Below, piece after piece: positions 166-20,925 of a stretch of DNA of 64,000 nt (its first letter is position 1; each line of letters begins with the position of its first letter). The notes beneath the pieces are model-generated. The model was not told the DNA's origin and made no database searches. It saw nothing but the letters and a program-made list of their open reading frames with translations. Source of the DNA: Ornithinimicrobium pratense (GTDB lineage: Bacteria; Actinomycetota; Actinomycetes; Actinomycetales; Dermatophilaceae); contig NZ_CP044427.1 in NCBI RefSeq assembly GCF_008843165.1, positions 1,426,001 through 1,490,000 of the forward strand. The letters are read 5' to 3'. The position numbers were made by a program, and so were the translations under genes.

Positions 166-518
166 GTCCCATGCACGTCATGGCCATCGTCCAGCTCCGC
201 ACGAGAACCGCCGAGGGCCGCGCCTACTACGACCGGAAGAAGTCCGCCGGGAAGACGTCGATGGAAACGCGGCGCTGCCTGAAACGGCGCGTGTCCGACC
301 TGGTGTACAAGGCGATGCTTGACGACCTCGTTGGGCACACGGCGACGGGCCCAGGAGGGCAAAGAGGTAGCGACTCTGACTCCAGCGCGGCCGGCTCGCA
401 ACCCGTTGCCGGATCTTCGGACAAGCATCTTCCCGACCCGCCATCACCAAGCCTAGAACGACCCTCCCAGCGGCGTCTTGACTCACAGGGGTGCCAGATG
501 CGCGCATTTTATGGGTGA
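144..518 (+). pseudogene. IS110-family transposase, C-terminal remnant
   Basis: The first 65 or so residues resemble the extreme C-terminus of IS110-type transposases (Transposase_20 domain): a GRAYYDRKKSAGKT segment, then RCLKRRVSDLVYK. In the family this end reads like AYxxRRxxEGKxxxExxRCLKRYxAREVY. The catalytic DEDD domain and the rest of the gene are missing upstream, where another frame is open instead. The downstream part (after about base 340) is low-complexity and probably not coding. IS110 elements lack terminal inverted repeats, so no ends can be drawn. It marks the left edge of the repeat-rich accessory region. Family call by recollection, no search run. Confidence 0.55.
491..509 (+). 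repeat. Dispersed GCGGCA-type repeat, degenerate copy
   Basis: Reads GTGCCAGATGCGCGCATT, close to the copy at 3589-3608. It lies between the IS110 remnant and the M23 peptidase gene. First copy of the series on the + strand. Confidence 0.4.
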
Positions 519-594
519 CCGACTATGTGACGCTCCCTGGTGAACGCGAGAGTGGCCTCGTGGATCAAGTCACTATCAGTACGGGCCGCAAGCT

Positions 595-1215
595 GTGACC
601 GGCGACCCCGTCAGTCTGGGGTACCCATTCAGCGGGCGATGGCTCGTCCAGAACAGCCCGGCCAACCGAGTGCCCAGCCACGGTACCCATCTGTTCGGCA
701 CGACGTACGCGATCGACTTCGTCCCGGTGGACGACCGGGGGCGCTCCGCTCCGCTCGGTCTTGGGTCTCTGTTTCGCCCTCAGGCGCCGCAACTTTTTAC
801 TGGGTTTGGGCGGCCGATCCTGGCACCATGCTCAGGCGTCGTGGTGGCCACCCATGACGGAGAACTGGACCATCATTCCTACCGTGGCCTGCCCTCCGTG
901 GGCTACGCACTCAGCCAGCATCGCCGGGCAGCCCACGGTTGGACTGGTTTGGCCGGCAACTATGTGGTGGTCGAGGTGCGACTCGGGGCATTTGTCGCGC
1001 TGTGCCACCTACGCGAAGGGAGCATTACGGTCGCGCCGGGCCAAAGTGTCGCTGCTGGCGAGGTCGTCGGCCAGTGCGGAAACTCGGGCAACAGCACAGA
1101 ACCACACCTGCACGTGCAGGCGATCGACCAAATCGACGTCACTCGTGCCAAGGGGCTGCCCCTTGCCTTCCCTCACGGGCTGCCGCGCAACGGCCGGATC
1201 GTCGAAGCGCCCTGA
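595..1215 (+). CDS. M23-family (LytM-like) zinc metallopeptidase
   Basis: Predicted peptidoglycan or peptide endopeptidase of 206 residues. The M23 fold is shown by an HGTHLFGTTYAID segment (H29 and D41 as first zinc ligands), a GNYVVVEV strand, LCHLREGS with H138, and the closing HxH ligand pair at H171/H173 followed by a conserved strand. A glycine-rich VAPGQSVAAGEVVGQCGNSG loop precedes the HxH, as in LytM and NlpD. No signal peptide or membrane anchor is visible, so it may be cytoplasmic or the start may be wrong; the GTG used has no clear ribosome binding site. It stands alone between two repeat copies (491 and 1228). Confidence 0.8.
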   Translation: MTGDPVSLGYPFSGRWLVQNSPANRVPSHGTHLFGTTYAIDFVPVDDRGRSAPLGLGSLFRPQAPQLFTGFGRPILAPCSGVVVATHDGELDHHSYRGLPSVGYALSQHRRAAHGWTGLAGNYVVVEVRLGAFVALCHLREGSITVAPGQSVAAGEVVGQCGNSGNSTEPHLHVQAIDQIDVTRAKGLPLAFPHGLPRNGRIVEAP

Positions 1216-1227
1216 ACGAGCCTGCCC

Positions 1228-1256
1228 GCGGCATGAGCGGATAGGGGTGAGATCCG
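1228..1256 (+). repeat. Dispersed repeat GCGGCATGAGCGGATAGGGG with short hairpin
   Basis: Thirteen bases after the M23 peptidase stop. CGGAT (1238-1242) is answered by ATCCG (1252-1256) across 9 bases, so this copy can form a small hairpin. Its core AGCGGATAGGGG is identical to the copy at 1592. Confidence 0.6.
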
Positions 1257-1312
1257 TGAACCCAGCACCTCGCTCCACGGTGATCTCCGAGCTGACCCGT
1301 TCCCTGGCCGCT

Positions 1313-1573
1313 TCACTGAGTGCGGTAGGAGGCAGCGACCTTCGATCTTGGTCCTTCGTCTCGAGGCGTACGCCTGAAGTTCAGCACGGCTGCGACGAGG
1401 GAGATGCCCAAGATGAGAGTGGAGATGCCGATCGTCACCCCATCCGCGGTCCGAACCCCATAGGCCAGGTAGACCAATGCGAAGACAGACGTGAGAGCAA
1501 TCAAGATCACGTTGGCTATCTCAGCCTGAACCGCCTTTCGTAGGACACTCTGATCCTGACACGCCCTGTGCAA
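1313..1573 (-). CDS. Small two-helix membrane protein
   Basis: Eighty-six residues from a TTG start. Two hydrophobic segments are plain, VILIALTSVFALVYLAYGV and a second beginning ITIGISTLILGIS, separated by a short polar hairpin. The C-terminal tail is basic and polar. No family is recognised. It is the only gene between repeat copies at 1228 and 1592 and runs against the direction of both. The start is uncertain because no strong ribosome binding site is seen. Confidence 0.55.
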   Translation of the reverse strand: MHRACQDQSVLRKAVQAEIANVILIALTSVFALVYLAYGVRTADGVTIGISTLILGISLVAAVLNFRRTPRDEGPRSKVAASYRTQ

Positions 1574-1591
1574 GCAGTCGCGTCCCTACAC

Positions 1592-1611
1592 GCCGCAAGA
1601 GCGGATAGGGG
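1592..1611 (+). repeat. Dispersed repeat GCCGCAAGAGCGGATAGGGG
   Basis: Nearly the same as the copy at 1228. It ends 8 bases before the TTG start at 1620, and its AGGGG may double as that gene's ribosome binding site. Confidence 0.6.
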
Positions 1612-1619
1612 ACACTGAG

Positions 1620-2060: not shown

Positions 2061-2114
2061 GGCGCGTCGACCGCGAACTCTGGTGAGCTCTGTTGGTCTT
2101 CGGCCTGACCGACC

Positions 2115-2182
2115 GGCGGCAGAACCGGATGTGTTCTCAGGACGGAGACACTCGGTTGTCCACCTATCCGTGCAGCGGTCCC
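2115..2182 (+). repeat. Dispersed repeat, two-part copy (left GCGGCAGAACCGGATGTG, right CTATCCGTGCAGCGG)
   Basis: The left part (2115-2133) and right part (2164-2182) form an imperfect inverted repeat, with boxes GCGGCA and CGGAT facing ATCCG and TGCAGC. The right part is closely matched by 20906-20925, about 19 kb away. It lies between the membrane protein and a pair of paralogous unknown genes. Confidence 0.6.
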
Positions 2183-2220
2183 GGGCGCGGCGGTGCTCGT
2201 CCGCACGTAGGTTGGGCACT

Positions 2221-2796
2221 GTGCAGCCTTCGTCAGACGGTCCCGGGGACGAGGCTCTTGAGGGTGGCCTGTTGTTGGAGCGCCCGCCGGGGGATGCGGT
2301 GCCGGGCATGAGCGAGCTGGCGTTGGTGCTGTACAGCGGCCCTGAGGTGCTGGTGGGTGTGCACGGTTTCCGGGTGTGGCCGGGGGGCATGCTCTTCGTG
2401 TTGTCGGTGCATCAGCGCACTGTGCGAGGGATTCCGGAACGCCGGCTGTGGCTGGAGCAGTACGGCGAGAGCATCGGGCAGCCGTTGTTCGAGCTGGGGG
2501 TTCGGTTCGCCGACGGCCGGCAGGTCTGGTCCGCGCAGGGCTACGGCCGCTTTGGCGGACCCGCGGGTTCGGCCCAGCAAGGTGTCCTCCTGCAACTGCG
2601 TGGGGGCGGTGGCCGGGCCGAGGACTTCAACCTCGACTGCTGGCTGGCTCCTGTCCCTGCGTCGGGGCTGGTCGGGTTCGGTTGCCGTTGGAGCGTGGGC
2701 GGGATCGAGGAGACCTGGCAGTACACCGACGCCGCAACCCTGCGCGCCGCTGCTGAGCGCACCATCCCTGCGCCGTGGGCAAGGACGGCGCCGTGA
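2221..2796 (+). CDS. Conserved protein of unknown function, paralogue of its downstream neighbour
   Basis: Read from GTG 2221 (191 residues), because the longer reading from 2083 runs through the repeat. A beta-rich core is suggested: LVLYSGPEVLVGVHGFRVW, a segment with a GVRFADGRQVW strand, and a C-terminal motif LDCWLAPVPASG followed by FGCRW. The same order of motifs occurs in the next gene (VVLHDGPDLL, IGVRHADGTESW, LDWWMQPLPSA, LALRCP). No signal peptide or catalytic motif is seen. It probably forms a tandem pair with the gene 30 bases downstream. Function unknown. Confidence 0.65.
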   Translation: MQPSSDGPGDEALEGGLLLERPPGDAVPGMSELALVLYSGPEVLVGVHGFRVWPGGMLFVLSVHQRTVRGIPERRLWLEQYGESIGQPLFELGVRFADGRQVWSAQGYGRFGGPAGSAQQGVLLQLRGGGGRAEDFNLDCWLAPVPASGLVGFGCRWSVGGIEETWQYTDAATLRAAAERTIPAPWARTAP

Positions 2797-2826
2797 CCGA
2801 CCACGGAACCGAACCGGAGGCGACGC

Positions 2827-3357
2827 GTGCCTGGTAGTCCAACCTCAAGAGGGAGCGACCCCCAGGTCCCACCCCCGGAGCGGTTGCCCGGATGCAGTGC
2901 CCTCAGCGTGGTGCTGCACGATGGCCCTGACCTGCTCGCGGCCGCACACAATTTCCGTTCCTATCCACAGGGCGCCCGGTTCACGGTTCTGCTGCTGCGA
3001 CCGCCCACAGTCCGCGGCGACCCTGCCGCCCCACCGTCGCTGCGCGATGTGTATGCGGGCCTGCAGATCGGTGTGCGGCACGCCGATGGCACCGAGTCGT
3101 GGTACGACTTCTATCGCCCCCATCACCCTGTCGTCGATCATGGACAGCACGCTCACCAGCTGATCGGCCTTGGTGGAGGTTCCTGGAGCCAGGACGTCGA
3201 AGGGCTCGACTGGTGGATGCAGCCGCTGCCCTCCGCAAGGGTGCACCTCGCCCTGCGTTGCCCGCGACCGCGACTGAGCCCAGTCTGGCACGACCTCGAC
3301 ACCGACGAGCTCGCCGCGGCCAGCCAACGTTCCCAGCCCGCAGCATGGGTCGGCTGA
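2827..3357 (+). CDS. Conserved protein of unknown function, paralogue of its upstream neighbour
   Basis: A 176-residue GTG-started protein, 30 bases after its paralogue, with GGAGG at 2815-2819 upstream of the start. Shared motifs are the HDGPDLLAAAHNFRSYP strand, GVRHADGTESW and LDWWMQPLPSA. The two copies are much diverged, so the duplication is old or both were acquired separately. No known domain recognised. One could speculate that the pair are immunity-type or small-molecule-binding proteins, but nothing in the sequence shows it. Confidence 0.65.
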   Translation: MPGSPTSRGSDPQVPPPERLPGCSALSVVLHDGPDLLAAAHNFRSYPQGARFTVLLLRPPTVRGDPAAPPSLRDVYAGLQIGVRHADGTESWYDFYRPHHPVVDHGQHAHQLIGLGGGSWSQDVEGLDWWMQPLPSARVHLALRCPRPRLSPVWHDLDTDELAAASQRSQPAAWVG

Positions 3358-3564
3358 CACACCCCGCCCCACCGGCCTGAAAAGCGCAAGGCCAGACGCG
3401 GCCACCACTCACCCTCAGAGGCACGAGCGGGGCGCGGGTTGCATACTCGTCCTGCGGAGCGCCTGTGCTCAGATGCTGCGCGGACCACCCACGCCGGCGC
3501 ATTGGGCTGGTGGCATCTGCGGGCCTGACGGGGCTTAAACTCTCAGAACGCAAACAAGCCGGTC

Positions 3565-3608
3565 GCGGCATGGGCGCGTTCTGCGCACGGCGGCAGATGC
3601 GCGCGTCC
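3565..3608 (+). repeat. Dispersed repeat, double copy
   Basis: GCGGCATGGGCGCGTTCTGC (3565-3584) is followed at once by GGCGGCAGATGCGCGCGTCC (3589-3608). It lies 24 bases beyond the 3' end of the gene on the minus strand at 3632-4066. Similarity with the copy at 14529 continues through the intervening bases into the 3' end of that gene's relative. Confidence 0.6.
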
Positions 3609-3631: not shown

Positions 3632-4066
3632 TCAGGTGGTCTCCTCGTATCTGGTGAGCGCGTCCATGTAGGTATCTCGGTCGAACTGCAGCTCGAGCCC
3701 GTCGTACTCTTCGCCAGGGCCCCGTTCAAAGTGCGACCACGTCACGGTTTCGGACCCGACCTCGATGCGGGCAAGGAGTGGCCCGCAGCCGATGACCGTA
3801 CACGTGCATCCAAGAAGCGCTGTGCGCCCGGACTCATCTTCAGGACATTGGCCAAGGAGAAGCGCGGTCATGTTGGTCCCGATGGGGTGACCAAGGTACT
3901 CAGGCGGCTCGATCCCGGGTTCTGCGTGAGGACGGAGCCAGTTCACCAAGTTCTTGCCGTCCAGGATGAGGTCGACGGTGTCGTATCGAACCGACTCAGT
4001 CCACGGGAGGGTGCCCTCGGCGATCCTGAGCTCCAGGTCTCGCACCGTGATGAACGTGCTCCTCAT
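3632..4066 (-). CDS. Conserved protein of unknown function, short relative of the gene at 14570-15361
   Basis: A 144-residue protein that aligns along its whole length with the C-terminal half of the product of 14570-15361. Shared segments are VRDLELRI, RYDTVDLILDGKNLV, GTNMTALLLGQ, SGRTALLGCTC, VIGCGPLLARIEVGSETVTWS and YMDALTRYEETT. Three cysteines (CTC, GC) are kept in both, which may suggest metal or disulfide use. No known family is recognised. Either it is the single-domain form or it has lost an N-terminal domain. The similarity continues past the stop codon into the repeat at 3589, as in the relative. Confidence 0.7.
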   Translation of the reverse strand: MRSTFITVRDLELRIAEGTLPWTESVRYDTVDLILDGKNLVNWLRPHAEPGIEPPEYLGHPIGTNMTALLLGQCPEDESGRTALLGCTCTVIGCGPLLARIEVGSETVTWSHFERGPGEEYDGLELQFDRDTYMDALTRYEETT

Positions 4067-4152
4067 GGGATCACCATACGAGCCGGGTCGCCGACGCCGA
4101 TCGCCGTCCGGCCGTCTAACCCCGACTTCCTCCTCCCTCGCAGCGGGCGACC

Positions 4153-4170
4153 GGCGGCATGAGCGTACTC
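4153..4170 (+). repeat. Dispersed repeat GGCGGCATGAGCGTACTC
   Basis: Intergenic copy between two minus-strand genes (ending at 3632 and 4352). It belongs to the GCGGCATGAGCG subtype seen at 1228 and 12448, but lacks the GGAT part. The rest of 4067-4351 holds nothing else recognised. Confidence 0.5.
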
Positions 4171-4351
4171 GACAGAGCCCGAGGCAAGCGGCGAGGGAAG
4201 GTAGCGACGGGGTGGCCTCAGTTCAGTCAGCCGCCAATCAGTCCTCACGCCCAGGAGGCCGTTAGGAGCCAGAACGCGCTTCCTCATCACTGGATTAAGG
4301 GGAGAACTTACGATCGATGGCCATCGGCCGGCGGCATTTCGGGGCCGGGCG

Positions 4352-4750
4352 CTACAGCCCGAAGACGTTGTCAGAAATTCTCGTGGCGTTCTCTGGTGGA
4401 TCCTGCCCGTCGGAGACCACGATGAAGCTTCCCGGCGAACCGCTTACCCCCAGCGGGGGGATGTCTGAACATCCCACCACCCAGTCCATCTCGTCGGTAT
4501 AAGCGATCAAGCAGACCCCGTCGTCTGAGGTGCGGGCAAGCCAAAGCTCTGCACCCTCGTAGGTGCCGACCGACCGGCTCGAGTCCAGCAGGATCTCGTC
4601 ATCGTCCGCAAAGTCCAGGGTTTCGGGCGGCGAGTCGTTGGCTTGCCGTTCCCGGTCGAGGTCACTGAATCCGTCTGTGGACGCGCAGGACGTCAGCACC
4701 GCGACGCTAACCGTCAGCGAAGCCACTAGGCTCCATCGTCGGAATGACAT
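4352..4750 (-). CDS. Small lipoprotein, unknown function
   Basis: The start is ATG at 4750, with GAGGAG five bases upstream. A basic n-region and hydrophobic stretch lead to a lipobox, VLTSC, with C22 as the acylated residue, so it should be anchored to the outer face of the membrane. The mature part of about 110 residues is acidic and carries the segments GAELWLARTSDDGVCLI and DEMDWVVGC, a pair of cysteines that could form a disulfide. Uncharacterised actinobacterial lipoproteins have similar segments. Solitary gene between repeat copies at 4153 and 5352, along with the HTH gene. Confidence 0.7.
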   Translation of the reverse strand: MSFRRWSLVASLTVSVAVLTSCASTDGFSDLDRERQANDSPPETLDFADDDEILLDSSRSVGTYEGAELWLARTSDDGVCLIAYTDEMDWVVGCSDIPPLGVSGSPGSFIVVSDGQDPPENATRISDNVFGL

Positions 4751-4756
4751 TCGCAC

Positions 4757-5075
4757 TCCTCAACACTGGGGTCGTAGCGCACGAGCCTACCCTTTGGCAC
4801 GCCACAGTGGCAGCGTGCTCGAAACGGAAGGCCGAGATGGAGCACGTGGCGCACCCGTCCATCGCGCTGAAGGACCCACCAGCGGCAAATGAGGTCGGGG
4901 GTGGCTTGCTGGTTGTAGCTGCCGGGGGTCCCCGCGATGAGGAGCGAGGATGCTGCTCGCGCGAAATGCCTGCGCGACTCGGTCGGGCCCCCACGTAATC
5001 AGCTCGGGTAGCTCATGTCCTGCATCGAATAGCTCGCGCCGCATGGCAAGAAGCTCACCGAGGAGACCGAGGGCC
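4757..5075 (-). other. Intergenic stretch with a possible decayed minus-strand reading frame
   Basis: No complete gene is supported. On the minus strand from about 5090 to 4980 one frame gives a plausible protein segment (GLLGELLAMRRELFDAGHEL, then a short run ending VAQAFR) that is antisense to the start of the HTH gene. It has no convincing start and turns low-complexity downstream, so it is probably a gene remnant. Confidence 0.25.
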
Positions 5076-5303
5076 TTGTCTGACCACCGAATCGTCACCC
5101 GGCTGGAGAAGGTGCTGATGGAGCGCAAGACGACGTTGACCGAACTATCCCGCACGACGGGGATCACGATGGCCAACCTGTCCATCTTCAAAAGCGGTCA
5201 CGCCAAAGCAGTTCGGTTCAGCAGCCTTACCCTCATCTGTGGCGCCCTCCATTGCGCGCCGGGGGACCTCCTCGACATCGTGCCGAAGAAGCCTGCCCAA
5301 TGA
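5076..5303 (+). CDS. Small XRE/YozG-type helix-turn-helix regulator
   Basis: Read from TTG 5076 (75 residues), with GAGGAG about 9 bases upstream. The protein has the layout of single-domain Cro/C1-type regulators: VTRLEKVLMERKTTLTELS, then a recognition-helix region TGITMANLSIFKSGHAKAVRF, then LICGALHCAPGDLLDIVP. The run from KAVRFSSL to PGDLLD is typical of YozG-like proteins, which bind DNA as dimers and often sit near small membrane proteins. The target is unknown. No partner gene overlaps it; two small genes follow after repeat copy 5352. Confidence 0.8.
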   Translation: MSDHRIVTRLEKVLMERKTTLTELSRTTGITMANLSIFKSGHAKAVRFSSLTLICGALHCAPGDLLDIVPKKPAQ

Positions 5304-5351
5304 TCGGCCGCTTCGTCCCATCGGCATGGTCGGACGCTACGCGTCCTCGTT

Positions 5352-5370
5352 GCGGCAGAACAGGACGTTG
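5352..5370 (+). repeat. Dispersed repeat GCGGCAGAACAGGACGTTG
   Basis: Forty-nine bases after the HTH gene, same orientation as the other copies. The remainder of 5304-5588 shows no gene. Confidence 0.5.
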
Positions 5371-6523: not shown

Positions 6524-6539
6524 CAACTGGACTTCGCCC

Positions 6540-6562
6540 GCAACGGCATGACAGTGCATCCG
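6540..6562 (+). repeat. Possible degenerate copy of the dispersed repeat
   Basis: ACGGCATGACAG followed by GCATCCG and, a little later, GCGCTGCC resembles a left box and a right box in the order seen at 2115-2182. It falls just after the gene ending at 6523. Weak copy. Confidence 0.25.
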
Positions 6563-6715
6563 AAGGTGCGCTGCCGGGTCGACGCTGCAGCCGTGTTCTG
6601 GCATCTTCCGGGACGCGCCACCAGGCCGTACTGGCCCAGTTGTCGGCGGTGTCGGCCCGGTCCGGTCCTCCCGCCACCGAATCACGCCGCGCAGGAGGGC
6701 GGCCGCTGCGCATAC

Positions 6716-7681
6716 CTAGGGCTGGAGCGCTTGGACAGCGCTCACGATGACGATCTGATCGGGCGCGAGCCATGGTTGGGCAGTCGCGTAAATGGCGTCG
6801 ACGGTTGCCCGGTCGGCGACCACGACCTCGACGTACAAACGAGGATCGGTCCCACCACTCCCAACACTGTGGAATCTGAGGTCCGATCGTTGAGCCACGG
6901 CGTCCTGCGCGGCCCGCAGGTCCTGATCGGAGGGGACGTTCCGCGTCTCGAGGCACAGGGGCCCGGTGTAGACGTCGCGGATCACGGCCCGGGAGGCGTC
7001 CAGGTCGGTGCCCTCGGTGAGCAGCACGTTCATCACCCCGCCGTCTGAGACCCAGGACGTCGCATAGCCGGTAAGGTCCTGGCGTAGCAGGGTCAGGAGC
7101 GCCTGCTCCTCGTCCATCCCAGCCGGTCCCTGGGTGCGACCGGCCTGGTCGACGCCGGCTACGTCGGCCGTGGGGTCCTCACACAGTGCGGTGAAATCCG
7201 TGTCGAGCCAGTCAGTCATGTCATAACCCGCAGGAGGCTCAGGGTTCAGTGGCCGGGTAAGGGTGAACGTCCCCTGCTCGCCGGCCTCCGGGGCGTAGTG
7301 ACCGATGGCGTACACGGTGTCGTCTGTCCAGGTAATCCCGTCTTCCTGCTGGACCTCGTGATCGGCCCAGGAGAACGCCCCTTCGAGCTCTGGTCCGATG
7401 CAGTCAGGCGGATAGATCGCTGTTTTCGGGCCGAAGCAGAGAACCACCGGATCCTGCACCGAGCGCTGATATGGGCTTGCGGCCAGGACGACCTCATTCG
7501 ACAGGTCCACAATCTCGGGCTCGTGACCGGCGGTCGCCTGTGGCGCGGGGGGAGCGCTCGTTGCAGTCCCCGTTACGGCCGAGCCGTCCCCGGTTGGTCC
7601 CGACTGGTTCGCGCACGCCACGAGGAACAGCGCCGAGCCGAGCCCCACAAGCGCGGCAGCAATTCTCATGCTTCGCATCAT
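6716..7681 (-). CDS. Secreted lipoprotein, unknown function
   Basis: Read from ATG 7681 (321 residues); the frame is open further upstream, but this start gives a proper signal peptide: a basic n-region MMRSMRIAAA, hydrophobic core LVGLGSALFL and lipobox LVAC with C23. A Thr/Ala/Pro-rich linker follows, then a globular domain of about 270 residues with several cysteines (VLCFGP, PPDCIGP, ALCEDP, LCLETRN), consistent with disulfides outside the cell. The last 100 residues (DLRFHSVGSGGTDPRLYVEV onward) form alternating strands and helices. No known family recognised. Largest simple gene in the left array. Confidence 0.7.
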   Translation of the reverse strand: MMRSMRIAAALVGLGSALFLVACANQSGPTGDGSAVTGTATSAPPAPQATAGHEPEIVDLSNEVVLAASPYQRSVQDPVVLCFGPKTAIYPPDCIGPELEGAFSWADHEVQQEDGITWTDDTVYAIGHYAPEAGEQGTFTLTRPLNPEPPAGYDMTDWLDTDFTALCEDPTADVAGVDQAGRTQGPAGMDEEQALLTLLRQDLTGYATSWVSDGGVMNVLLTEGTDLDASRAVIRDVYTGPLCLETRNVPSDQDLRAAQDAVAQRSDLRFHSVGSGGTDPRLYVEVVVADRATVDAIYATAQPWLAPDQIVIVSAVQALQP

Positions 7682-7835
7682 GGCAGTTCGACGCGACGCC
7701 TGCCCGGATCGTTCCGCAGAATCGGTCTGCCCGGTCGGGCGAAAGACTCCGTAGCACCAGCACCCGATCGCGATTGCGCCCCCATGAGCGACGACACTCA
7801 ACATCTCGCATCGAGACGGCCCTCAAGTCACGACC

Positions 7836-7854
7836 GGCGGCAGAAGCGGATAGC
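7836..7854 (+). repeat. Dispersed repeat GGCGGCAGAAGCGGATAGC
   Basis: One of the best copies (CGACC before it, as at 2110, 4148 and 9246). It separates two minus-strand genes whose facing ends are at 7681 and 7877. Confidence 0.6.
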
Positions 7855-8293: not shown

Positions 8294-8400
8294 GCGGGCA
8301 CTCTTCCAGAAGGAGGTTGCAGGCGCGCTGGGCCAAGCCGGCATCTTGCGTCGGGAGTGGCTGGCCTTGGGAACCAAAGGAGTGGTGCACACTCTGCGCA

Positions 8401-8792
8401 TGGGCCTGTTTGATCGCTTTCGTTCCAAGTCGCATGACGACGCCGGTCTCGGCGCTCATCACCGTGGCCTCCGCCTTGCTCACGAGTCCGATGGGCGAGC
8501 CTCGTTGACGCTTGACCTTGGGGGCCTGCCTACCGACGCAGCCGTGCAGGATTCAGGGGAAGAATCGAATGGCGCATTCTGGGAAGGAGTCGCCTCCTAC
8601 GTGACTCCTGCCTTGGCCTCGCGGTAGACATGGACTCGGAAGGGAAGCATGTTTGCCGTCTATGGCCACCGGACGGACCTCGAGACGCTGCGTGAGCTGC
8701 TGCAGCCGCTGGTCCATCAACCCGAGGCGATGACAGGCCTGTTGCAACGCGCCCGAGCGGACGGCGTGGTGCTCGAAGGGTACGGGCGGTGA
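8401..8792 (+). pseudogene. Imm51-like immunity protein gene, frameshifted
   Basis: The first part (ATG 8401 to TAG 8625) gives MGLFDRFRSKS and NGAFWEGVASYVTPALA. After the stop, the same frame from 8649 gives MFAVYGHRTDLETLRELLQP and QRARADGVVLEG. Together they match the layout of Imm51 immunity proteins: NGxFWEGV, then a D-E-G-x-F-A-x-G strand, then a helix ending in a hydrophobic acidic tail. The bridging residues (VDMDSEG) appear only in another frame, so two small indels, near 8620 and 8647, interrupt the gene. A sequencing error cannot be excluded. No cognate toxin is visible. Family call from recollection of Imm51 members. Confidence 0.55.
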
Positions 8793-8820
8793 CCAAGCGG
8801 CATTCGCAAAGAAGCCACAT

Positions 8821-8841
8821 GCGGCAGATGCGTGCGTCTGC
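8821..8841 (+). repeat. Dispersed repeat, near-palindromic copy
   Basis: Begins GCGGCAGATGCGTGCGTCTG. GCAGA and TCTGC form an inverted repeat within it. It lies 28 bases after the Imm51-like gene. Confidence 0.6.
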
Positions 8842-9138: not shown

Positions 9139-9203
9139 CGAACGGGTCCCTTCCGAGGGCGGGGCCGCAGGGGTCGTCCTCGTACGCCTCCGTCGGCGGA
9201 GCA

Positions 9204-9345
9204 CACTACCGGAGGTCTGGTCGAGCCAGCCGTGTCCAGGACTTGCGACCGGCGGCAGAGTCGTGCGTGAGGCGGCGCATTTCCGGCGTGTGCTTTGCGG
9301 CTTCTCGAGCTTGGTGGTTGAACTGTGTCGTGAATTCCGGTAGTG
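9204..9345. repeat. 10-bp inverted repeat flanking a dispersed-repeat copy
   Basis: CACTACCGGA at 9204-9213 is exactly inverted as TCCGGTAGTG at 9336-9345, and the repeat copy at 9251 lies between them. Could be the outer arms of a longer recombination or hairpin element. The 446 bases from 9139 to 9584 contain no gene. Confidence 0.45.
9251..9269 (+). repeat. Dispersed repeat GGCGGCAGAGTCGTGCGTG
   Basis: Same subtype as the copy at 14529 (GGCAGAGTCGTGCG). Preceded by GCGACC, as are other good copies. Confidence 0.6.
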
Positions 9346-9584: not shown

Positions 9585-11732
9585 GTGATGAGGTACTTGC
9601 AGCGCACTCTCATTTTGCGCCTAGTGGCATCGTCCCTCGCGCTTACGGGCCTGCTGTCCGGGGTACTGGGATCGGGTGTTACGGCAACCGCATCGAGCGC
9701 ACCTCAAGAAGTGGCTTCCGTCGCATCAGCCCTTGGGACGAGCGGGGGGCGGGTTCACGGTGGCGATCGGTACGCGACTTCTGCGGCGATCTCAAGGCAC
9801 GCGTTCCCGCAGGGAGCCGATGTGGTGTACCTGGCCCGTGGGGATGAGTTTGCGGACGCCCTTGCTGGAGGGATGCTGACCGACGGCCCCATCCTCTTGG
9901 TGCGGGCCTGTGGTGGCGTTCCCAGGTCGGTGCGCGCCGAAATCGCTCGGCTGAATCCGTCGCAGGTCGTGGCTCTGGGTGGTCCTAACGCTGTCTGCGA
10001 TGCCAGTTTGGCCGAGGCGGCCGCAGGGCGGCCCGCCAGTCGGCTCGCCGGGGTGAACCGTTACGACACCGCCGTCGAGATCTCTCTGCGGGCTTGGCCC
10101 GAGCCAAACGATGCGGACGCTCTGTACGCGACCAGCGGGCACGCCTACGCCGACGCCGTTGCCGGAGGCGGCCTCAACGATGGTCCGGTCTTGCTGGTTC
10201 GGCCGGACGGTTCCTACCCAACCTCTGTCCTGGCCGAGCTGGGCCGCATCTCGGGTCCTCCTGTAGTAGGGCTCGGTGGGACCACGGTCATTTCTGACGC
10301 CACGCTCGCCGATATGGACTGGGGCACCTCGCAGTTGCCTGACAGGTTGCACGGATCGAACCGCTACGACACTGCAGTCACCATCGCTGGCCGTGCCTAT
10401 CCCGAGGGCCCCTCGACGGTGTACCTCGCCAGGGGCGACACCCTGGTAGACGCCGTCGCAGCCGGTGGGCTCGCTGACGGGCCGGTGTTGCTAGTCGGCC
10501 CGACCTGTGGTGCGCTGCGCACCAGCGTCAAGACGTACCTGTCCTTGGTGGCACCGCAGCAGGTGCTGGCCTTGGGCGGACAAGGAGCGGTCTGTGACGC
10601 GACAGTGGACGCGGCCGTCGCCGCGGCCACTTCTTCCCCGGCCTTGCCGGGTATGCAGATCAGTGGCGGGCCAAGCCTCACGTGCGGCGTGACCACCGAC
10701 GGTGAGACGAAGTGCTGGGGCTACAACGCTGGCGGAGGCCTGGGGGACGGCACCCTCCTGGACCGTCCGAGCCCCGGACCTGTCCTTGGCCTAGGGCCGG
10801 GCACGACCAGTACCATCGAAGCTGGCGGCCCCTCGTGCGCCTTGCTGTCCAACGGCTCGGTCCAGTGTTGGGGCGGCAATACTGAGGGCAGTATCCCCGG
10901 GGCTGGCGCGTACACCGCTGTGCCGGTTGACATCCCACGGCTAGGTGCCGGCACGACTGCCCACATCAGCCTTGGTCAGAAGCACGGTTGTGCGATCAGC
11001 ATCACCGGGGCCACCCGCTGCTGGGGATCGAACTCCTCCAGCCAGCTAGGAGTTGGGCTGCCGAAGGGCAGCCTGTACGCGTTGCCGACGCTCGTGCCCG
11101 GTTTCGGTCCCGGCACGACACGACAGATCGATGCCTTCTATCTCGGCACCTGTGCCGTACGCCTCGACAGCTCGGCGTGGTGCTGGGGCACCAACGTGGG
11201 CGGGAGGATCGGTGATGGCACCCGCACCGAGCGCAACCTGCCCACCGCAGTGGTCGGCCTGGGCCCAGGGACCACCGCCCATATCGCCACCGGCACGTCC
11301 CACACTTGCGCAGTGACCACCGAAGGCGCAGCGAAGTGCTGGGGTTCGTCGGCGACTGGTGCGCTGGGGAACGGGAGGTTGGGGCCTGATGTGCTGACCC
11401 CGGACGATGTCGTCGGTCTGGGTGAGGGGACCACCACCATGATCGACGCCGGCTCTGCGTACGCCTGTGCTGTCACCACCGACGGGACAGCGAAGTGCTG
11501 GGGCACCAACGTCTACGGGAAACTAGGCATCGGCGAGGGCATAGACTTCCAACTCGCGCCCCACCCAGTGATCGGTCTGACCAACAACACCAATCTCATC
11601 CAGACGAGCACAAACACGACCTGCGCCATTACCACCAGCGACGAACTCCGGTGCTGGGGCGACAACCACCTCGGCCAAGTCGGTGATGGAACGACTACCG
11701 ACCGCCGCACCCCGGTGCCTATCCCCCTATGA
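9585..11732 (+). CDS. Secreted protein with three CWB2 repeats and RCC1-type propeller repeats
   Basis: A 715-residue protein (GTG 9585 or ATG 9588, GAGGGAG upstream) with a signal peptide of about 40 residues. Three cell-wall-binding type 2 repeats follow, each opening with a GxxRYxTA motif (near residues 58, 155 and 257) and containing a PVLLVxP-type strand and an xVxALGG strand. From about residue 355 come roughly seven RCC1-type blades with the signature CAVTTDGxxKCWGxNxxGxLGDG. CWB2 modules hold proteins to the wall by anionic polymers; RCC1 propellers bind other macromolecules. The combination suggests a surface adhesin or enzyme scaffold. It lies between repeat copies 9447 and 11789. 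Confidence 0.9.
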   Translation: MMRYLQRTLILRLVASSLALTGLLSGVLGSGVTATASSAPQEVASVASALGTSGGRVHGGDRYATSAAISRHAFPQGADVVYLARGDEFADALAGGMLTDGPILLVRACGGVPRSVRAEIARLNPSQVVALGGPNAVCDASLAEAAAGRPASRLAGVNRYDTAVEISLRAWPEPNDADALYATSGHAYADAVAGGGLNDGPVLLVRPDGSYPTSVLAELGRISGPPVVGLGGTTVISDATLADMDWGTSQLPDRLHGSNRYDTAVTIAGRAYPEGPSTVYLARGDTLVDAVAAGGLADGPVLLVGPTCGALRTSVKTYLSLVAPQQVLALGGQGAVCDATVDAAVAAATSSPALPGMQISGGPSLTCGVTTDGETKCWGYNAGGGLGDGTLLDRPSPGPVLGLGPGTTSTIEAGGPSCALLSNGSVQCWGGNTEGSIPGAGAYTAVPVDIPRLGAGTTAHISLGQKHGCAISITGATRCWGSNSSSQLGVGLPKGSLYALPTLVPGFGPGTTRQIDAFYLGTCAVRLDSSAWCWGTNVGGRIGDGTRTERNLPTAVVGLGPGTTAHIATGTSHTCAVTTEGAAKCWGSSATGALGNGRLGPDVLTPDDVVGLGEGTTTMIDAGSAYACAVTTDGTAKCWGTNVYGKLGIGEGIDFQLAPHPVIGLTNNTNLIQTSTNTTCAITTSDELRCWGDNHLGQVGDGTTTDRRTPVPIPL

Positions 11733-11788
11733 CGCCGCTCGACGTTGCACAGGTCAACGTTCGCTCCCTCCCCAACGGTTGTCTGCTC

Positions 11789-11814
11789 GCGGCAGAAGAG
11801 TGACGCGGGCGGAT
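11789..11814 (+). repeat. Dispersed repeat GCGGCAGAAGAGTGACGCG
   Basis: Fifty-six bases after the CWB2-RCC1 stop and before the frameshifted lipoprotein gene. A GGGCGGAT follows, where the other copies have CGGAT. Confidence 0.5.
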
Positions 11815-12421: not shown

Positions 12422-12447
12422 AGACCGGCCGGCCGACCCTCCCAGGT

Positions 12448-12465
12448 GCGGCATGAGCGGACGGG
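12448..12465 (+). repeat. Dispersed repeat GCGGCATGAGCGGACGGG
   Basis: Same subtype as 1228 (GCGGCATGAGCGGA). Separates the lipoprotein gene from the methyltransferase gene. Confidence 0.6.
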
Positions 12466-12548: not shown

Positions 12549-13304
12549 GTGACGAGTTACAACGAGCTTGGCGAGGTGTACGAGTGGCTCATCTCGGATG
12601 CCAAGCTCGGTCCGGTCGAGTTCGCCGCGTCTTTCGACGACGTCCTCGGTCTCCTCCCGTCGGACGCTCACGTCCTGGATTGTTCGTGCGGTACCGGGCA
12701 GTTGGCGGTTGGGCTCGCCGGTCGTGGCATGGAGGTTGTGGCTACTGACGCCAGCGACGTGATGATTCGTCGAGCGCAGGAGTTGGCCCTGGAGTTCGAG
12801 GCACGTGTCCGCACGCTGCGGGCGGCGTGGGAGGAGTTGCCCGACCATTTTGATGACGGCACCTTCGACGTGGTTTTCTGCGTCGGCAACTCACTGCACC
12901 ATGCAGAGGGCGCGGGAGGCAGGCTTGCTGCTCTGGACTCGATGGCACGGCTTCTGCGCCGTGGCGGGCGTCTGGTACTCACCTCGCGCACCTGGGAACG
13001 CGTCAGGGCTAAAGGTTCCCGGCTGGACATCGGGGACCGGCTCGTCCGCCGAAACGGCCGCGACGCCGTCGTGATCTACCGGTGGGAGATAGCGCCGGGT
13101 TGGGAGGATGAGCATCACATCGAGATCGCGATCGCCCAGCTCGATGGGGGCGGGTCGGTCATCGTCCGTTCGGAACTGCTGTCGTGCTGGCCCTACCGAT
13201 ACAACGAACTCGCAGCCGAGTTGCGCCAGGTCGGGCTCCGCGCGGAAATGAGCACGTTCAACCTTGAGGCCGAGAACTACACGGTCGCGGCGAGCAAGGT
13301 GTAG
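12549..13304 (+). CDS. Class I SAM-dependent methyltransferase
   Basis: Start at GTG 12549, which has GGAG eight bases upstream; GTG 12543 is also possible. About 251 residues. Motif I for AdoMet binding is VLDCSCGTGQLAVGLAGRG, motif II carries the acidic residue in VVATDASDVM, and post-I/motif IV region is FDVVFCVGNSLHHAEG, as in small-molecule methyltransferases of the Methyltransf_11/25 type. RLLRRGGRLVL is the usual motif VI strand. The C-terminal 80 residues (DEHHIEIAIAQLDGGG onward) form the substrate cap. The substrate cannot be read from the sequence. Solitary gene. Confidence 0.88.
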   Translation: MTSYNELGEVYEWLISDAKLGPVEFAASFDDVLGLLPSDAHVLDCSCGTGQLAVGLAGRGMEVVATDASDVMIRRAQELALEFEARVRTLRAAWEELPDHFDDGTFDVVFCVGNSLHHAEGAGGRLAALDSMARLLRRGGRLVLTSRTWERVRAKGSRLDIGDRLVRRNGRDAVVIYRWEIAPGWEDEHHIEIAIAQLDGGGSVIVRSELLSCWPYRYNELAAELRQVGLRAEMSTFNLEAENYTVAASKV

Positions 13305-13383
13305 ACAACGGATAACGCGAGTTCCCGGCCAGCCTAGAGCGTCGCTCCTAGGCGGCTGAGGCCCTCATCGGCGCGAACGAGTC

Positions 13384-13402
13384 GCGGCAGTTGCGGATGT
13401 CC
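13384..13402 (+). repeat. Dispersed repeat GCGGCAGTTGCGGATGTCC
   Basis: Lies in the 108 bases between the convergent ends of the methyltransferase gene and the minus-strand gene ending at 13413. Confidence 0.5.
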
Positions 13403-13412: not shown

Positions 13413-13931
13413 TCACCCTGGTGGCCCAAAAAGTTGTTCGACTCCACGAGCCACGTGTACGGCGAACGCCTTGTGCGGATAGAGGAGGATGCCGTCCTGC
13501 GAAGCCGATTTTGCGAGATGCTGCAGTGTCAAGGCAAGGGACGCCAACGCGGGCGGGGGCCTTAGGAGCCAGACTCTTCCGGGGGGCCGTGGCGGCAGGC
13601 CGCATTCATGAAGTGTCTCATTGGCCTCTGCCTCGGTCCGAAGATAGGTCCAGGTGGACCACGGCATGCGCTGGACGGGGCCGTCATCGCAGACCATGGA
13701 GGAGAAGCGTGCTCGAGTATCCCGGACCCAGGCTCGGGCGGCGTCGGGCCAAACAGCCGGCAAGAAGCAGAAGAGCAGACTCTCGGTCAGGGGCTCGAAA
13801 CCTAGGGGCGCGCCGCGCTGAACGCCCGGTATCTGCATCACGTCGTCCGATTCCACCACGTCGGCGCTGCCCCACTCCCTGCGGCTGAACTCAGCTTCTT
13901 CACTCTCTCGTGCCCAGTCAACGCCGCTCAT
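13413..13931 (-). CDS. Protein of unknown function
   Basis: A 172-residue soluble protein. Recognisable stretches are EPLTESLLFCFLPAVWPDAARAW, MPWSTWTYLRTEAEANETL and LASLALTLQHLAKSASQDG, with aromatic residues spread through. No signal peptide, membrane helix or catalytic motif is seen and no family is recognised. Good coding signature and a solitary position between repeat copies at 13384 and 14005. In a polyimmunity-type reading of the region it would be a candidate immunity protein, but that is only inference. Confidence 0.6.
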   Translation of the reverse strand: MSGVDWARESEEAEFSRREWGSADVVESDDVMQIPGVQRGAPLGFEPLTESLLFCFLPAVWPDAARAWVRDTRARFSSMVCDDGPVQRMPWSTWTYLRTEAEANETLHECGLPPRPPGRVWLLRPPPALASLALTLQHLAKSASQDGILLYPHKAFAVHVARGVEQLFGPPG

Positions 13932-14004
13932 AGGCGCAGTCTGGCATCACACCCCCCATGCGAGCCTGATCCAGTCGGGCCCCTGGTGCTTGACCCGCCG
14001 GCAT

Positions 14005-14024
14005 GCGGCAGATCCGGATGTTGG
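14005..14024 (+). repeat. Dispersed repeat GCGGCAGATCCGGATGTTGG
   Basis: Good copy ending 10 bases from the stop codon of the minus-strand gene at 14034. ATCCGGAT inside it is an 8-bp palindrome. Confidence 0.6.
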
Positions 14025-14483: not shown

Positions 14484-14528
14484 GGTGATGATGCTGCCTC
14501 ACAGCCACGGGTAAACGGGTGCGCACAG

Positions 14529-14545
14529 GTGGCAGAGTCGTGCGG
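14529..14545 (+). repeat. Dispersed repeat GTGGCAGAGTCGTGCGG
   Basis: Sits 25 bases beyond the 3' end of the gene at 14570-15361, the same relation as copy 3589 has to the paralogue at 3632-4066. The bases between repeat and stop codon are also alike in both places (CTCC, then GGCTACG, then TCAGGTGGTCT). Confidence 0.6.
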
Positions 14546-14569
14546 CCCTCCTGCGGCTACGTCGCCTGA

Positions 14570-15361: not shown

Positions 15362-15600
15362 GCCTCCCCAGGTTATATGCCTCAGGCGCCCGCAGACCCC
15401 CAGTGACATCGCCCAGCATCTCGTGTGGGTCCACGTACCCCCGACTTTCCAGCTTGGCTTGTGCCATGACGGACTGACTGCGGCGACGCCCGCCTCGCTG
15501 GTCCACTCGACATGCCCGTCCTCGCGAAAGGCGGCAGGAGCGGACGTGCCGCGTCCGTAGTAGCTGCAGTACAGGAGGCGTCCGAGCCTCCTGTTCGACA
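15351..15600 (-). pseudogene. Possible decayed gene upstream of 14570-15361
   Basis: Between about 15600 and 15351 coding-like segments occur in two frames: RLLYCSYYGRGTSAPAAF and HVEWTSEAGVAAVS in one, then AKLESRGYVDPHEMLGDVTG in the other, ending in a stop that overlaps the ATG at 15361. A single frameshift near 15460 would join them. No start is obvious. It may be a broken gene once coupled to the downstream one. Confidence 0.3.
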
Positions 15601-18879: not shown

Positions 18880-18998
18880 GGTCCAGCCTCATTTGTGCTC
18901 GCCATACCCCTCCCACGACCGACGCACCGCCAAGGTTGCCACGCCCGTCTATCTCGCCATCGGGGCAAGGGTCACGGAACACGCGCCAGCGTCCCCAG

Positions 18999-19015
18999 GG
19001 CGGCATGTGAGTGCG
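18999..19015 (+). repeat. Dispersed repeat GGCGGCATGTGAGTGCG
   Basis: Lies between the sigma factor remnant and the membrane protein gene at 19115. A second partial match, GGCAGCGGATCC, follows near 19060. Confidence 0.45.
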
Positions 19016-19114
19016 CTCTCTCATGTGGCGATGACTTGACTCTAGGGTGATGTGCGGAGGCAGCGGATCCTGTTATGGAAGACGTGCAGTGAGGGCAACA
19101 CTGAGGTGGTATGG

Positions 19115-19630
19115 GTGACTGAACAGGAAGCCGTCGCGCACCTGCGAGCTGCACCACGATTGCGCCGACGGCAGACGCACGGAGCAGCGCTGCTGTCTGC
19201 AACTTTCGCCGCAGTCACCTACACCCTGCTTACCGTCTCTCTGTGGGACCACCCATGGGAGCGCGCTGCTATTCAGGGGGCTACCTGGTTCGCGTTCGGC
19301 GGCATCATCGGCTGGCTGGTCACCTCGACCAACTCGCTGAACAAAGTTGCCGCCAAGGTGGAGTCAGTGATCCGCGCCGAACTGATCAAGGTGGACGGTC
19401 AACTGGTGACTGCACGCCAGGGCGATGGCAGCGAGCTTGTATGGGCGGTTAAAAGCCCACGCAAGTTGCGCAAGTTGGCTCTTGGAGTCGGACAGAGTAT
19501 CTGGCTCGCAGCACCAGCTCGACGGGGAGATCACATCCTGGCGATTGCTTCCTCTAATGCGGACAACCGCCAAACCCCCACGGCACTGTGGCCCGCCGAC
19601 GTCCCATGGACGCCCGGGCCATGGGATTGA
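19115..19630 (+). CDS. Two-helix membrane protein with a soluble C-terminal domain
   Basis: Read from GTG 19115 (171 residues), with GAGGTGG upstream; the longer reading from 19052 runs through intergenic sequence. After a basic start come two helices, ALLSATFAAVTYTLLTVSLW and ATWFAFGGIIGWLVTS. The cytoplasmic part begins with a helix (VAAKVESVIRAELIKVDGQL) and then beta-like segments with LVWAVKSPRKLRKLALGVGQ. No family recognised. Coding signal is good. Confidence 0.6.
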   Translation: MTEQEAVAHLRAAPRLRRRQTHGAALLSATFAAVTYTLLTVSLWDHPWERAAIQGATWFAFGGIIGWLVTSTNSLNKVAAKVESVIRAELIKVDGQLVTARQGDGSELVWAVKSPRKLRKLALGVGQSIWLAAPARRGDHILAIASSNADNRQTPTALWPADVPWTPGPWD

Positions 19631-19711
19631 GTAGAGCGCTCGCAGCGACATAAGCGTGCGAAGGGATCGGGACGCGTCTGAGCACCAGTTCCGCCCGGAC
19701 CGCCGCCCCGT

Positions 19712-20656
19712 TCACATCCGTTCGACGCGGTCGGCCTGTGGTCCTCGATCGCTCTGTCGCACCTGGTATCGGACCCGATCGCCCTCGTGCAGCGCCTCGG
19801 CGTCTCTAAGAACGGACACGTGCACGAACAGGTCCGCGCCTCCCTTGTCCGGGGCGATGAAGCCGAACCCCCGCTCCGCGTCGTAACGCTTGACCACTCC
19901 CTCGCCGCCGCGCGCCGGGACGTGGGATGCCTCCCGTTGTCCCGACCGAGCGCGGGTCGTCGACGTCGCGGGTGCGCCCCGCGGTGTCGAGCTGCGCGCG
20001 AGGCGCACGTCGCGAGCCTGCGGGCCCTTCTCGCTCACGACGATGTCGTACGTCACCCGGTCCCCCTCGCCCAGCTCGGGGAGCCCGTCGGCCAGCGCCC
20101 GAACGTGGACGAAGACATCGGGGCCGCCCGACTCGGGGGTGATGAACCCAAAGCCCTTGTCCCCGTCGTACCAGGACACGGTGCCGTCCGCCCCGTCGGC
20201 GGCCACGGCCTGCTGGGCGGCCTGGGCTCCCAAGGGGAGCAGATGGTCAGCCTGCGGTCCCTTCTCCCCGTCGACGACGAGGAACGCCACCCGTTGCCCC
20301 TCCGAGACCACGCCGCCGCCCACGATGGCCGAACTGTGGAGGAAGATCTCCGCACCGCCGCCGTCGGGCGTAATGAAGCCGTACCCCTTGGCTGGCTCGT
20401 ACCAGGAGACGGTGCCGAGCAGGCCCAGCGGTGTATCGGCGGCCTGGTCGGCCGTGACCCGGACGCGGCGTGCCTGCGGGCCGCGGTCCCCCTCGCCGAT
20501 CTCGAACTCGACCACCTGCCCCTCCCGGAGCAGCTTCATGGCGTCGTCGCTGACGAGCTCGGATGCGTGCACGTACAGGTCCTCTGCATCCTGCCCGAGG
20601 GCGATGAAGCCGAACCCCCGGTCGGCATCGAACCAGCGGACGGTTCCCTGGGTCAC
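19712..20656 (-). CDS. Protein with four tandem cold-shock domains
   Basis: Read from GTG 20656, which has AAGGAG seven bases upstream (314 residues). Four complete CSDs are seen, each with the RNP1-type motif (DRGFGFI, AKGYGFI, DKGFGFI, ERGFGFI), the RNP2-type motif (DLYVHAS, EIFLHSS, DVFVHVR, DLFVHVS) and the closing GPQA strand. Repeats 1-3 are close together; a Ser/Thr/Arg-rich linker of about 30 residues separates repeats 3 and 4. Ordinary bacterial cold-shock proteins have one CSD of about 67 residues, so this is a polyvalent form likely to grip long single-stranded RNA or DNA. Confidence 0.92.
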   Translation of the reverse strand: MTQGTVRWFDADRGFGFIALGQDAEDLYVHASELVSDDAMKLLREGQVVEFEIGEGDRGPQARRVRVTADQAADTPLGLLGTVSWYEPAKGYGFITPDGGGAEIFLHSSAIVGGGVVSEGQRVAFLVVDGEKGPQADHLLPLGAQAAQQAVAADGADGTVSWYDGDKGFGFITPESGGPDVFVHVRALADGLPELGEGDRVTYDIVVSEKGPQARDVRLARSSTPRGAPATSTTRARSGQREASHVPARGGEGVVKRYDAERGFGFIAPDKGGADLFVHVSVLRDAEALHEGDRVRYQVRQSDRGPQADRVERM

Positions 20657-20801
20657 GGCTGACTCCTTGTCGAAGTTTCGGTCGGTGTTCCCCCCATTGT
20701 CCCCGACGGGACTGCGACAAGGCGCCCGGCGCCCAAAGTGCCGCACCGTCTTGGCAAGTGCCCCGACTGCGACATCCACGGCACCCAGCGCTGCGCCGAC
20801 A

Positions 20802-20821
20802 GCGGCAGAGTCGGATGTGCG
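20802..20821 (+). repeat. Dispersed repeat GCGGCAGAGTCGGATGTGCG
   Basis: Good copy in the 310-base gap (20657-20966) between the cold-shock gene and the unknown gene at 20967. Confidence 0.6.
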
Positions 20822-20890
20822 AGAGTCGCCCGTGCGGGCCGAGAAGTATGTCGGGCCCAAGTGGGACCATGGCGTCAGCCCGAGGACTAG

Positions 20891-20925
20891 GCAGCTCGGA
20901 TGTCACGTATCCGTGCAGCAGTCCC
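20891..20925 (+). repeat. Dispersed repeat with right-hand half and perfect CGGAT/ATCCG arms
   Basis: GGCAGCTCGGATGTCAC (20891-20907) passes directly into CGTATCCGTGCAGCAGTCCC (20906-20925). CGGAT and ATCCG are inverted across 7 bases. The right half matches 2164-2182 almost base for base. Right-most good copy of the series. Confidence 0.6.

Follow-up and report, generated by a model that had tools for sequence, protein, structure and literature searches.

Arrays of small gene modules separated by recombination sites have been described as integrons, as clusters of attC sites lacking integron integrases (CALINs) and as the dif modules of Acinetobacter plasmids. The passages of PMC13141974 cited here describe the last of these as small gene modules between pdif/dif sites of ~28 bp, in each of which 6 bp separate the two arms bound by recombinase. 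Neighbouring sites are inverted, so that C and D dif modules alternate; the modules lie on plasmids, and host XerC/XerD are thought to act on them. In the part of PMC9024848 on which we draw, the data set held no complete integrons from Actinobacteria, one lone integrase and a few attC clusters. Here we analyse 64,000 nucleotides of the Ornithinimicrobium pratense genome (NZ_CP044427.1, positions 1,426,001 to 1,490,000; hereafter the window), which comes as a single contig of 3.54 Mb and belongs to the Ornithinimicrobium/Serinicoccus group. An earlier note on this stretch had pointed to a dispersed, same-orientation repeat between small genes as a possible new kind of cassette array. The evidence below makes it very likely that the window's cassette array, which lacks an integrase, belongs to an integron-like system native to Actinomycetia, in which a tyrosine recombinase, here called IntA, would recombine sites of ~26 bp.

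The repeat is longer than the roughly 14 bp first assigned to it: the ~26-bp site consists of two inverted ~10-bp arms flanking an asymmetric, nearly invariant 6-bp core, GCGGCA. In a logo of 659 distinct sites from 105 scanned loci, information is concentrated between -10 and +17 and the core bases are 95-100% conserved. The consensus is C-G-C-S-C-K-V-N-N-N for the left arm and D-D-D-B-M-G-K-R-Y-G for the right arm, the stronger of the two. The dyad is visible in the pairing of C at -10 with G at +15, of G with C/T, of C at -6 with G at +11 and of K with M, and in the lack of T at -4 and of A at +9. At register 0 the left arm agrees with the reverse-complemented right arm in 4.55 of 10 positions, compared with 2.1-3.4 at shifts of 1-6. 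Arms reshuffled among sites match at 4.35 positions (standard deviation 0.05), barely fewer than arms of one site, so the mirror is a property of the consensus, as with two independent binding arms. Inverted arms around a 6-bp crossover region are the core-site layout of tyrosine recombinases such as Cre or Xer, and the site has the arm-6-arm form of 26-28 bp seen in dif modules. Among the short units whose lengths were listed, 154 of 155 measure at least 27 bp.

Sites were scored with a profile of 28 positions, built from 327 distinct sites outside the window's genus, a score above 11 counting as a pass; the training sites had in turn been gathered with a profile drawn mostly from that genus. 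On its + strand the window has 20 matches, 19 of them in positions 1-21,000, and the - strand has none (Table 1), compared with 2 and 0 in the reversed sequence and a mean of 0.2 (maximum 2) in 60 dinucleotide shuffles of 1-21,000. All 20 lie outside gene calls scoring above 15, in agreement with the earlier description of the repeat as intergenic and always on the + strand; across array loci, 40 of 731 sites fall inside called genes, compared with 70% of random positions. The original list of copies was largely sound but incomplete: 14 of its 19 positions pass (cores 1228, 2116, 3565, 3590, 4154, 5352, 7837, 8821, 9252, 12448, 13384, 14005, 19000 and 20802), three score low (1592, 7.2; 11789, 7.0; 9448, 3.9), two fail (14529 and 20891), and six sites that it lacked also pass (4882, 5321, 6543, 15531, 19645 and 33861). 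The bare word GCGGCAKR is weak evidence, with 37 matches on both strands vs 22.9 expected and an equally high count in 1 of 100 shuffles.

Comparison between arrays places edges of shared DNA at the core. Where two sites have only the left flank in common (150 pairs), the first difference peaks at +6, right after GCGGCA (45 pairs; 91 at +6 to +9); where they have only the right flank in common (81 pairs), the match begins most often at 0 (25 pairs). Both counts are uncorrected for relatedness. BLAST similarities of 200-5,000 bp between arrays start on a site in both sequences in 37 of 136 cases and end on one in 31 of 152, with 1.06% expected in one sequence, and the site-coincident edges peak at single bases, 0 and +6. 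Left out of this count were similarities spanning more than four sites, those recurring on average in more than six loci and those overlapping the integrase gene, the last because a first boundary count had been swamped by that gene, present in most loci. Units thus appear to be exchanged between species at the repeat, and where looked at the repeat is not equally common between core genes: two non-array stretches of this genome, 20 kb each, gave 1 and 0 matches. Neither of the outcomes that the earlier note had named as speaking against a cassette array was therefore seen where we looked, and its proposal of a new kind of array is supported. The sharp, single-base peaks of the site-coincident edges on either side of the core are hard to reconcile with a REP-like (repetitive extragenic palindromic) or other dispersed repeat whose genes turn over by ordinary homologous recombination, an alternative raised at the outset and one that we find extremely improbable. 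Such exchange would have to work with 26 bp, which is short for it; moreover, isolated copies have no clear palindrome and a recombinase is linked to the repeat. What such a repeat would explain are the tandem runs of 28-34-bp units and the majority of similarity edges that lie away from sites.

Individual arrays illustrate the exchange. In the array at 466-474 kb of the genome carrying the window (G000), a three-cassette block shares 99.5-99.9% identity with one in another species (G002); the shared segment runs from the G to the last A of GCGGCA, with unrelated DNA on both sides. The G000 copy also has a 1.3-kb insertion in its middle cassette (L024, oriented 4066-5336) with no site near it, absent from the 99.5% identical G002 copy. 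In G010 the order is F12, the integrase cassette, one more cassette and F4, and in G006 F12 adjoins F4, gain and loss being indistinguishable; in L078 cassettes are present twice at 99% identity in swapped order. Cassettes of the window recur elsewhere: the one between 3590 and 4154 in G027 (L067, 87.7% identity) and the methyltransferase cassette from 12448 in Lentzea alba (L176, 83% over 875 bp) both show similarity that begins exactly on a site in both sequences. Similarity of 6553-7842 to L062 (87.5%) stops, in both sequences, 5 bp beyond the start of the core (site 7837), that of 8870-9259 to L231 of the same genome ends on a site (9252) in both, and that of 8363-8828 to L067 ends on a site in the window only. 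A similarity to an array of the same genome begins 2 bp into 14529 (14531 = L231:6746), and that position may be a decayed site. The remaining window similarities have no edge on a site, except paralogous stretches around 3590 and 14529. A homologue of the methyltransferase cassette on a Streptomyces plasmid has no site in its 6.8-kb stretch. Horizontal transfer would account for the sharing of cassettes between species.

An accompanying recombinase, which the earlier note had suggested looking for, is found in relatives but not beside the window array. Across Actinomycetia the site is accompanied by IntA, a XerC/D-like tyrosine recombinase family of ~309 aa, and among the tyrosine recombinases of the genus this one family is located at arrays. 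Its group A (at least 72% identity, fragments included) has sites in flanks of up to 1.5 kb at 21 of 23 loci, and relatives at 43-48% identity have them at 0 of 7. A scan of named genomes yielded 79 IntA loci, eight of them in the window's genus group and one (L164) the contig of a training locus (L070). At 75 of the 79, all but L163, L192, L215 and L217, the strand opposite the integrase bears a site, and the totals are 400 opposite-strand sites, 25 same-strand sites and 22 in the reversed control. More than 20 host genera are named in the scan, among them Ornithinimicrobium, Serinicoccus, Terrabacter, Knoellia, Humibacillus, Tessaracoccus, Micropruina, Propioniciclava, Nocardioides, Actinoplanes, Kineococcus, Lentzea, Kibdelosporangium, Amycolatopsis, Cellulomonas, Motilibacter, Rhodococcus and Nocardia. 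In 33 of the 70 loci with a start-side site, the nearest such site is no more than 125 bp from where the match begins, a point that does not always coincide with the start codon. Sites occur on both sides in 29 of the 43 loci with 5 kb on either side (start side only, 8; stop side only, 4; none, 2), so the integrase commonly sits inside the array. Two distant relatives (from a set at ~47-62% identity), L242 and L218, have an opposite-strand site 94 and 68 bp from the match start. Every one of 11 sequences compared has R161, K187, H251, H277 and Y286, and R254 is nearly invariant; we take these residues to be catalytic. In a tree built from those 49 loci, out of 79, that have frames of 250 aa or more, the split between groups A and B has full support, group A with L242 inside it forms one clade (SH-aLRT, a likelihood-based branch support, 95), and subgroups largely follow host families. 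The predicted structure of IntA had a mean pLDDT (predicted local distance difference test) of 40 and was not used.

This linkage bears on a second explanation, in which host XerC/XerD recombine the sites, in the manner of Acinetobacter dif modules, while IntA just happens to be a common passenger among the cassettes. The Xer-like layout of the site, the many arrays without IntA, including that of the window, and the closest solved relative of IntA being XerD (80.7 bits, vs 31.4 for IntI4) are in keeping with it. We nevertheless consider it improbable, given the association in more than 20 genera and on the opposite strand, the close start-side sites and the presence of such a site in two of six distant relatives.

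Other recombinases show no comparable association. One beside a small array of the window's genome (L081:6299-7426) was dropped, with sites in the retrieved flanks of 3 of 25 match loci (L082, L090 and L095); a tyrosine recombinase family separate from IntA (G000:C1:2842394-2843422, L081), found in 19 of 78 genomes at E<=1e-20, the window's own included, has no consistent link to sites. Only weakly related (26%) is the 374-aa recombinase of L080, close to the array at 466-474 kb, and no match to the serine recombinase family PF00239 was found in the window's genome. A LexA box upstream of the integrase was present in none of 75 regions at 0-1 mismatch and in 11 at 2, no more than in the control. 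Phage records matching IntA number 110 (61 Gordonia and 47 Arthrobacter phages), with 46-47% identity among the 20 listed, and related recombinases without sites (L143, L144, L146-L150; Arthrobacter, Gordonia phages; 43-48% identity) are close to phage integrases. This phage-like group is a possible source of IntA.

Could the arrays be true but divergent integrons or CALINs, with IntI acting on attC hairpins? The geometry is the same (a direct array, an antisense integrase and small solitary genes) and minimal units appear palindromic, but the inverted arms account for that palindromy. IntA reaches 61.6 bits with the integron-integrase model TIGR02249, whose cut-off is 265, with the best stretch at its C-terminal end, and it scores far lower with IntI4 than with XerD. 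An attC-like hairpin, for which no known attC served as control, was not clearly found when sites were folded against shuffles: the mean z is -0.02 to -0.29 for isolated sites (260 of 411 folded) and -0.11 to -0.51 for sites with a neighbour (120 of 248 folded). Genes point with the sites in 367 cases and against them in 383 (750 genes without an internal site). A divergent integron is accordingly very improbable in our judgement.

Since both directions are about equally frequent, the cassette genes seem, as far as gene calls tell, to be self-sufficient. Their products have a median length of 160 aa (750 genes). Among 659 intervals between neighbouring sites, 434 measure 150-3,000 bp and 156 at most 45 bp; the short ones are mostly 34, 29 or 28 bp, or one site plus a few bases, sometimes with ~18 in tandem. 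Such runs, for instance the two of 18 sites at 34-bp spacing (site plus 8 bp) in L233 (12819-13397) and L234 (11833-12411), could pass for a repeat array of another kind. The 445 cassettes of 150-4,000 bp contain one called gene in 242 cases, two in 88 and none in 45. For the window, 20 proteins were tested, two of which lie just beyond the outermost sites: 13 have no Pfam match at 0.01. None matches a Pfam immunity family, but with 13 proteins matching nothing at all this says little about the polyimmunity locus suggested earlier. From many hosts, 106 cassette proteins were analysed (107 picked from 619 candidates, one near-duplicate left out). Recurring families among the 25 of 67 Pfam families listed are acetyltransferases, YoeB and HicB toxin-antitoxin proteins, HIT, MerR and transposases; the defence models listed (25 of 79) each match one protein.

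Arrays are not confined to the window. The same genome has others at 457-477 kb, 626-646 kb, 1.112-1.130 Mb, 1.168-1.188 Mb, 1.695-1.714 Mb and 2.828-2.846 Mb. Within each of them most sites share a direction, although the last has 3 - and 2 + sites with the other-genera profile. In the genus, a looser site pattern has at least one match in 30 of 31 members, with 420 matches vs 86 for the reversed pattern over all 31. An earlier profile, trained on this genome and 20 loci of relatives (17 of the same genus and three, L071-L073, from two other genera), gave 252 matches above 14 in those 20 loci vs 4 in reversed sequence, a count that is partly circular because the profile was trained there. This earlier profile also underlies the logo, the comparison of edges between arrays, the site counts at the 79 IntA loci and the cassette statistics, which are partly circular wherever those training loci enter. 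In another family of the order, G039 has 28 and 10 sites in L071 and L072 (C8 540000-580000). A class-wide sample of 296 genomes contains six with IntA at 70% identity or more, four of which have at least three strict site matches. Strict sites cluster beside IntA in G238, G253 and G465 (in G465 all three within 2 kb) and not in G267 or G405.

We picture the system as follows. IntA would bind both arms of a double-stranded site and exchange strands within GCGGCA, the 6-bp crossover region, and the DNA between two direct sites would be excised or inserted as a circle. The asymmetry of the crossover region would explain why the sites of an array share one orientation. The integrase gene lies antisense to the sites, often between two of them and often with an attI-like site shortly upstream of its start. 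The only trace of IntA in the window's genome covers residues 244-307 (64 residues, 57% identity), in L231 near another array, which makes the window array integrase-less today; since only this fragment is kept, the array is probably a relic, or was formerly served by an integrase since lost.

Several observations weigh against this account. At E<=1e-40 the genome of the window yields no match to IntA. Among the 31 genomes of the genus, group A is present in 15 (as fragments in several), the distant group alone in three (G001, G015 and G030), and neither in 13; these searches scored the best 7-12 candidates per genome, so that a miss is not proof of absence. The large array of G039 comes with no IntA match, and some genus genomes have no site excess (pattern vs reversed: G005, 0/3; G009, 2/2; G013, 7/6; G017, 7/6). 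Class-wide, 17 further genomes have at least three strict matches, as does the reversed control in more than 30, mostly large ones; because the control so often reaches three, whole-genome counts are no test of the link to IntA, whereas clustering beside it is. Same-strand matches at the 79 loci slightly exceed the reversed control, and four of the six distant relatives (L143, L215, L239 and L241) have no close upstream opposite-strand site above 13. About 73-80% of similarity edges do not lie on a site in both sequences, and at some offsets isolated sites fold slightly more than shuffles (z to -0.29, standard error 0.07).

Several other features of the window were noted. The CWB2/RCC1 gene (Table 1) is large for a cassette gene. 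A protein with four cold-shock domains is encoded at 19712-20662, near the last sites; its DNA has counterparts in L151 and L076, at a distance from sites. A segment of ~330 bp at 172-498 recurs in nine loci (L027, L066, L075, L076, L160, L162, L191, L212 and L213) and is presumably, by resemblance, an IS110-type transposase remnant. Eight relatives carry the right-hand neighbour gene, 22499-24418, at 66-74% identity; the stretches compared contain neither sites nor any further BLAST similarity. No Rfam match and no tRNA were found in the window.

Table 1 Sites and cassette genes of the window; scores are those of the other-genera profile unless stated.
Feature	Position	Strand	Basis
Recombination site	1218..1243, core 1228-1233	+	profile 14.1
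Weak/decayed site	1582..1607, core 1592	+	profile 7.2; window-trained profile 20.0
Recombination site	2106..2131, core 2116	+	profile 22.1
Two cassette genes, no Pfam match	2221..3357 (2221-2796, 2908-3357)	+	gene calls, Pfam
Weak site, 25 bp ahead of next	3555..3580, core 3565	+	profile 11.2
Recombination site	3580..3605, core 3590	+	profile 18.7
Cassette gene, no Pfam match; similar DNA at 14520-15013	3632..4045	-	gene calls, Pfam, BLAST similarity
Recombination site	4144..4169, core 4154	+	profile 15.1
Recombination site, absent from earlier list	4872..4897, core 4882	+	profile 15.1
Site, 31 bp ahead of next (minimal unit), absent from earlier list	5311..5336, core 5321	+	profile 12.0
Recombination site	5342..5367, core 5352	+	profile 27.8
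Weak site, absent from earlier list	6533..6558, core 6543	+	profile 12.1
Cassette gene, no Pfam match; also in L062, up to site 7837	6716..7669	-	Pfam; similarity
Recombination site	7827..7852, core 7837	+	profile 16.3
Recombination site	8811..8836, core 8821	+	profile 19.6
Recombination site	9242..9267, core 9252	+	profile 17.0
Cassette gene, cell-wall-binding (CWB2) and RCC1-repeat protein	9585..11732	+	Pfam
Weak/decayed site	11779..11804, core 11789	+	profile 7.0; window-trained profile 16.5
Recombination site	12438..12463, core 12448	+	profile 16.8
Cassette gene, S-adenosylmethionine (SAM)-dependent methyltransferase	12549..13304	+	Pfam
Recombination site	13374..13399, core 13384	+	profile 26.3
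Cassette gene, DUF5956-like	13413..13931	-	Pfam
Recombination site	13995..14020, core 14005	+	profile 21.8
Possible decayed site, core GTGGCA at 14529	14519..14544	+	profile -4.2
Recombination site, absent from earlier list	15521..15546, core 15531	+	profile 24.0
Recombination site	18990..19015, core 19000	+	profile 22.3
Recombination site, absent from earlier list	19635..19660, core 19645	+	profile 15.3
Last array site	20792..20817, core 20802	+	profile 20.3
Solitary site outside array, absent from earlier list	33851..33876, core 33861	+	profile 17.3

On a wider view, it is likely that Actinomycetia own an independently evolved counterpart of the integron, chromosomal, with a Xer-like recombinase and double-stranded ~26-bp sites, and both old and active: old in that the integrase tree largely follows host families, active in that some cassettes are near-identical between species and others still recognisable between host families. 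A cassette system of a different kind would explain the swapping of small accessory genes in a group reported, in the cited part of PMC9024848, without complete integrons. A single short profile would make many unstudied cassette genes searchable, engineering would gain a simple recombinase whose 6-bp crossover word is strict, and whether cassette arrays need folded single-stranded sites becomes testable. We found no description of such a system in the open-access papers searched, although one may exist in subscription papers or preprints, and the portions of PMC8138268, PMC3414803, PMC8618304 and PMC13141974 used here contain none.

Set beside known systems, the site differs from REP-type repeats, which are palindromic and without exchange function, in showing exchange at its edges. 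Phage integrases insert the phage at an att site. The simple tyrosine integrases of actinobacteriophages (IntBrujita subgroup), as presented in the cited part of PMC8138268, are likewise short recombinases in actinobacterial elements, but the Brujita integrase is only 27% identical to IntA over 248 aa. With dif modules, as far as the cited passages of PMC13141974 describe them, the arrays share site length, a 6-bp spacer, two arms and small modules; they differ in that nearly all sites are direct, lie in chromosomes or large contigs and in many hosts are accompanied by a nearby recombinase gene belonging to one family. The likeness to integrons and CALINs extends to the direct array of small solitary genes between sites, the integrase gene antisense to the array and often with a site near its start, the integrase-less arrays and the many genes without a Pfam match. 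The differences are that IntA scores below the cut-off of the IntI model and so falls outside the IntI family, that the site is a ~26-bp arm-6-arm element with core GCGGCA and almost no folding excess at isolated copies, that cassette genes point in both directions, and that the integrase often lies between two sites with cassettes on both sides rather than at the end of a one-sided array. The system is thus integron-like in its working, yet in recombinase, folding and gene direction it stands outside the integrons.

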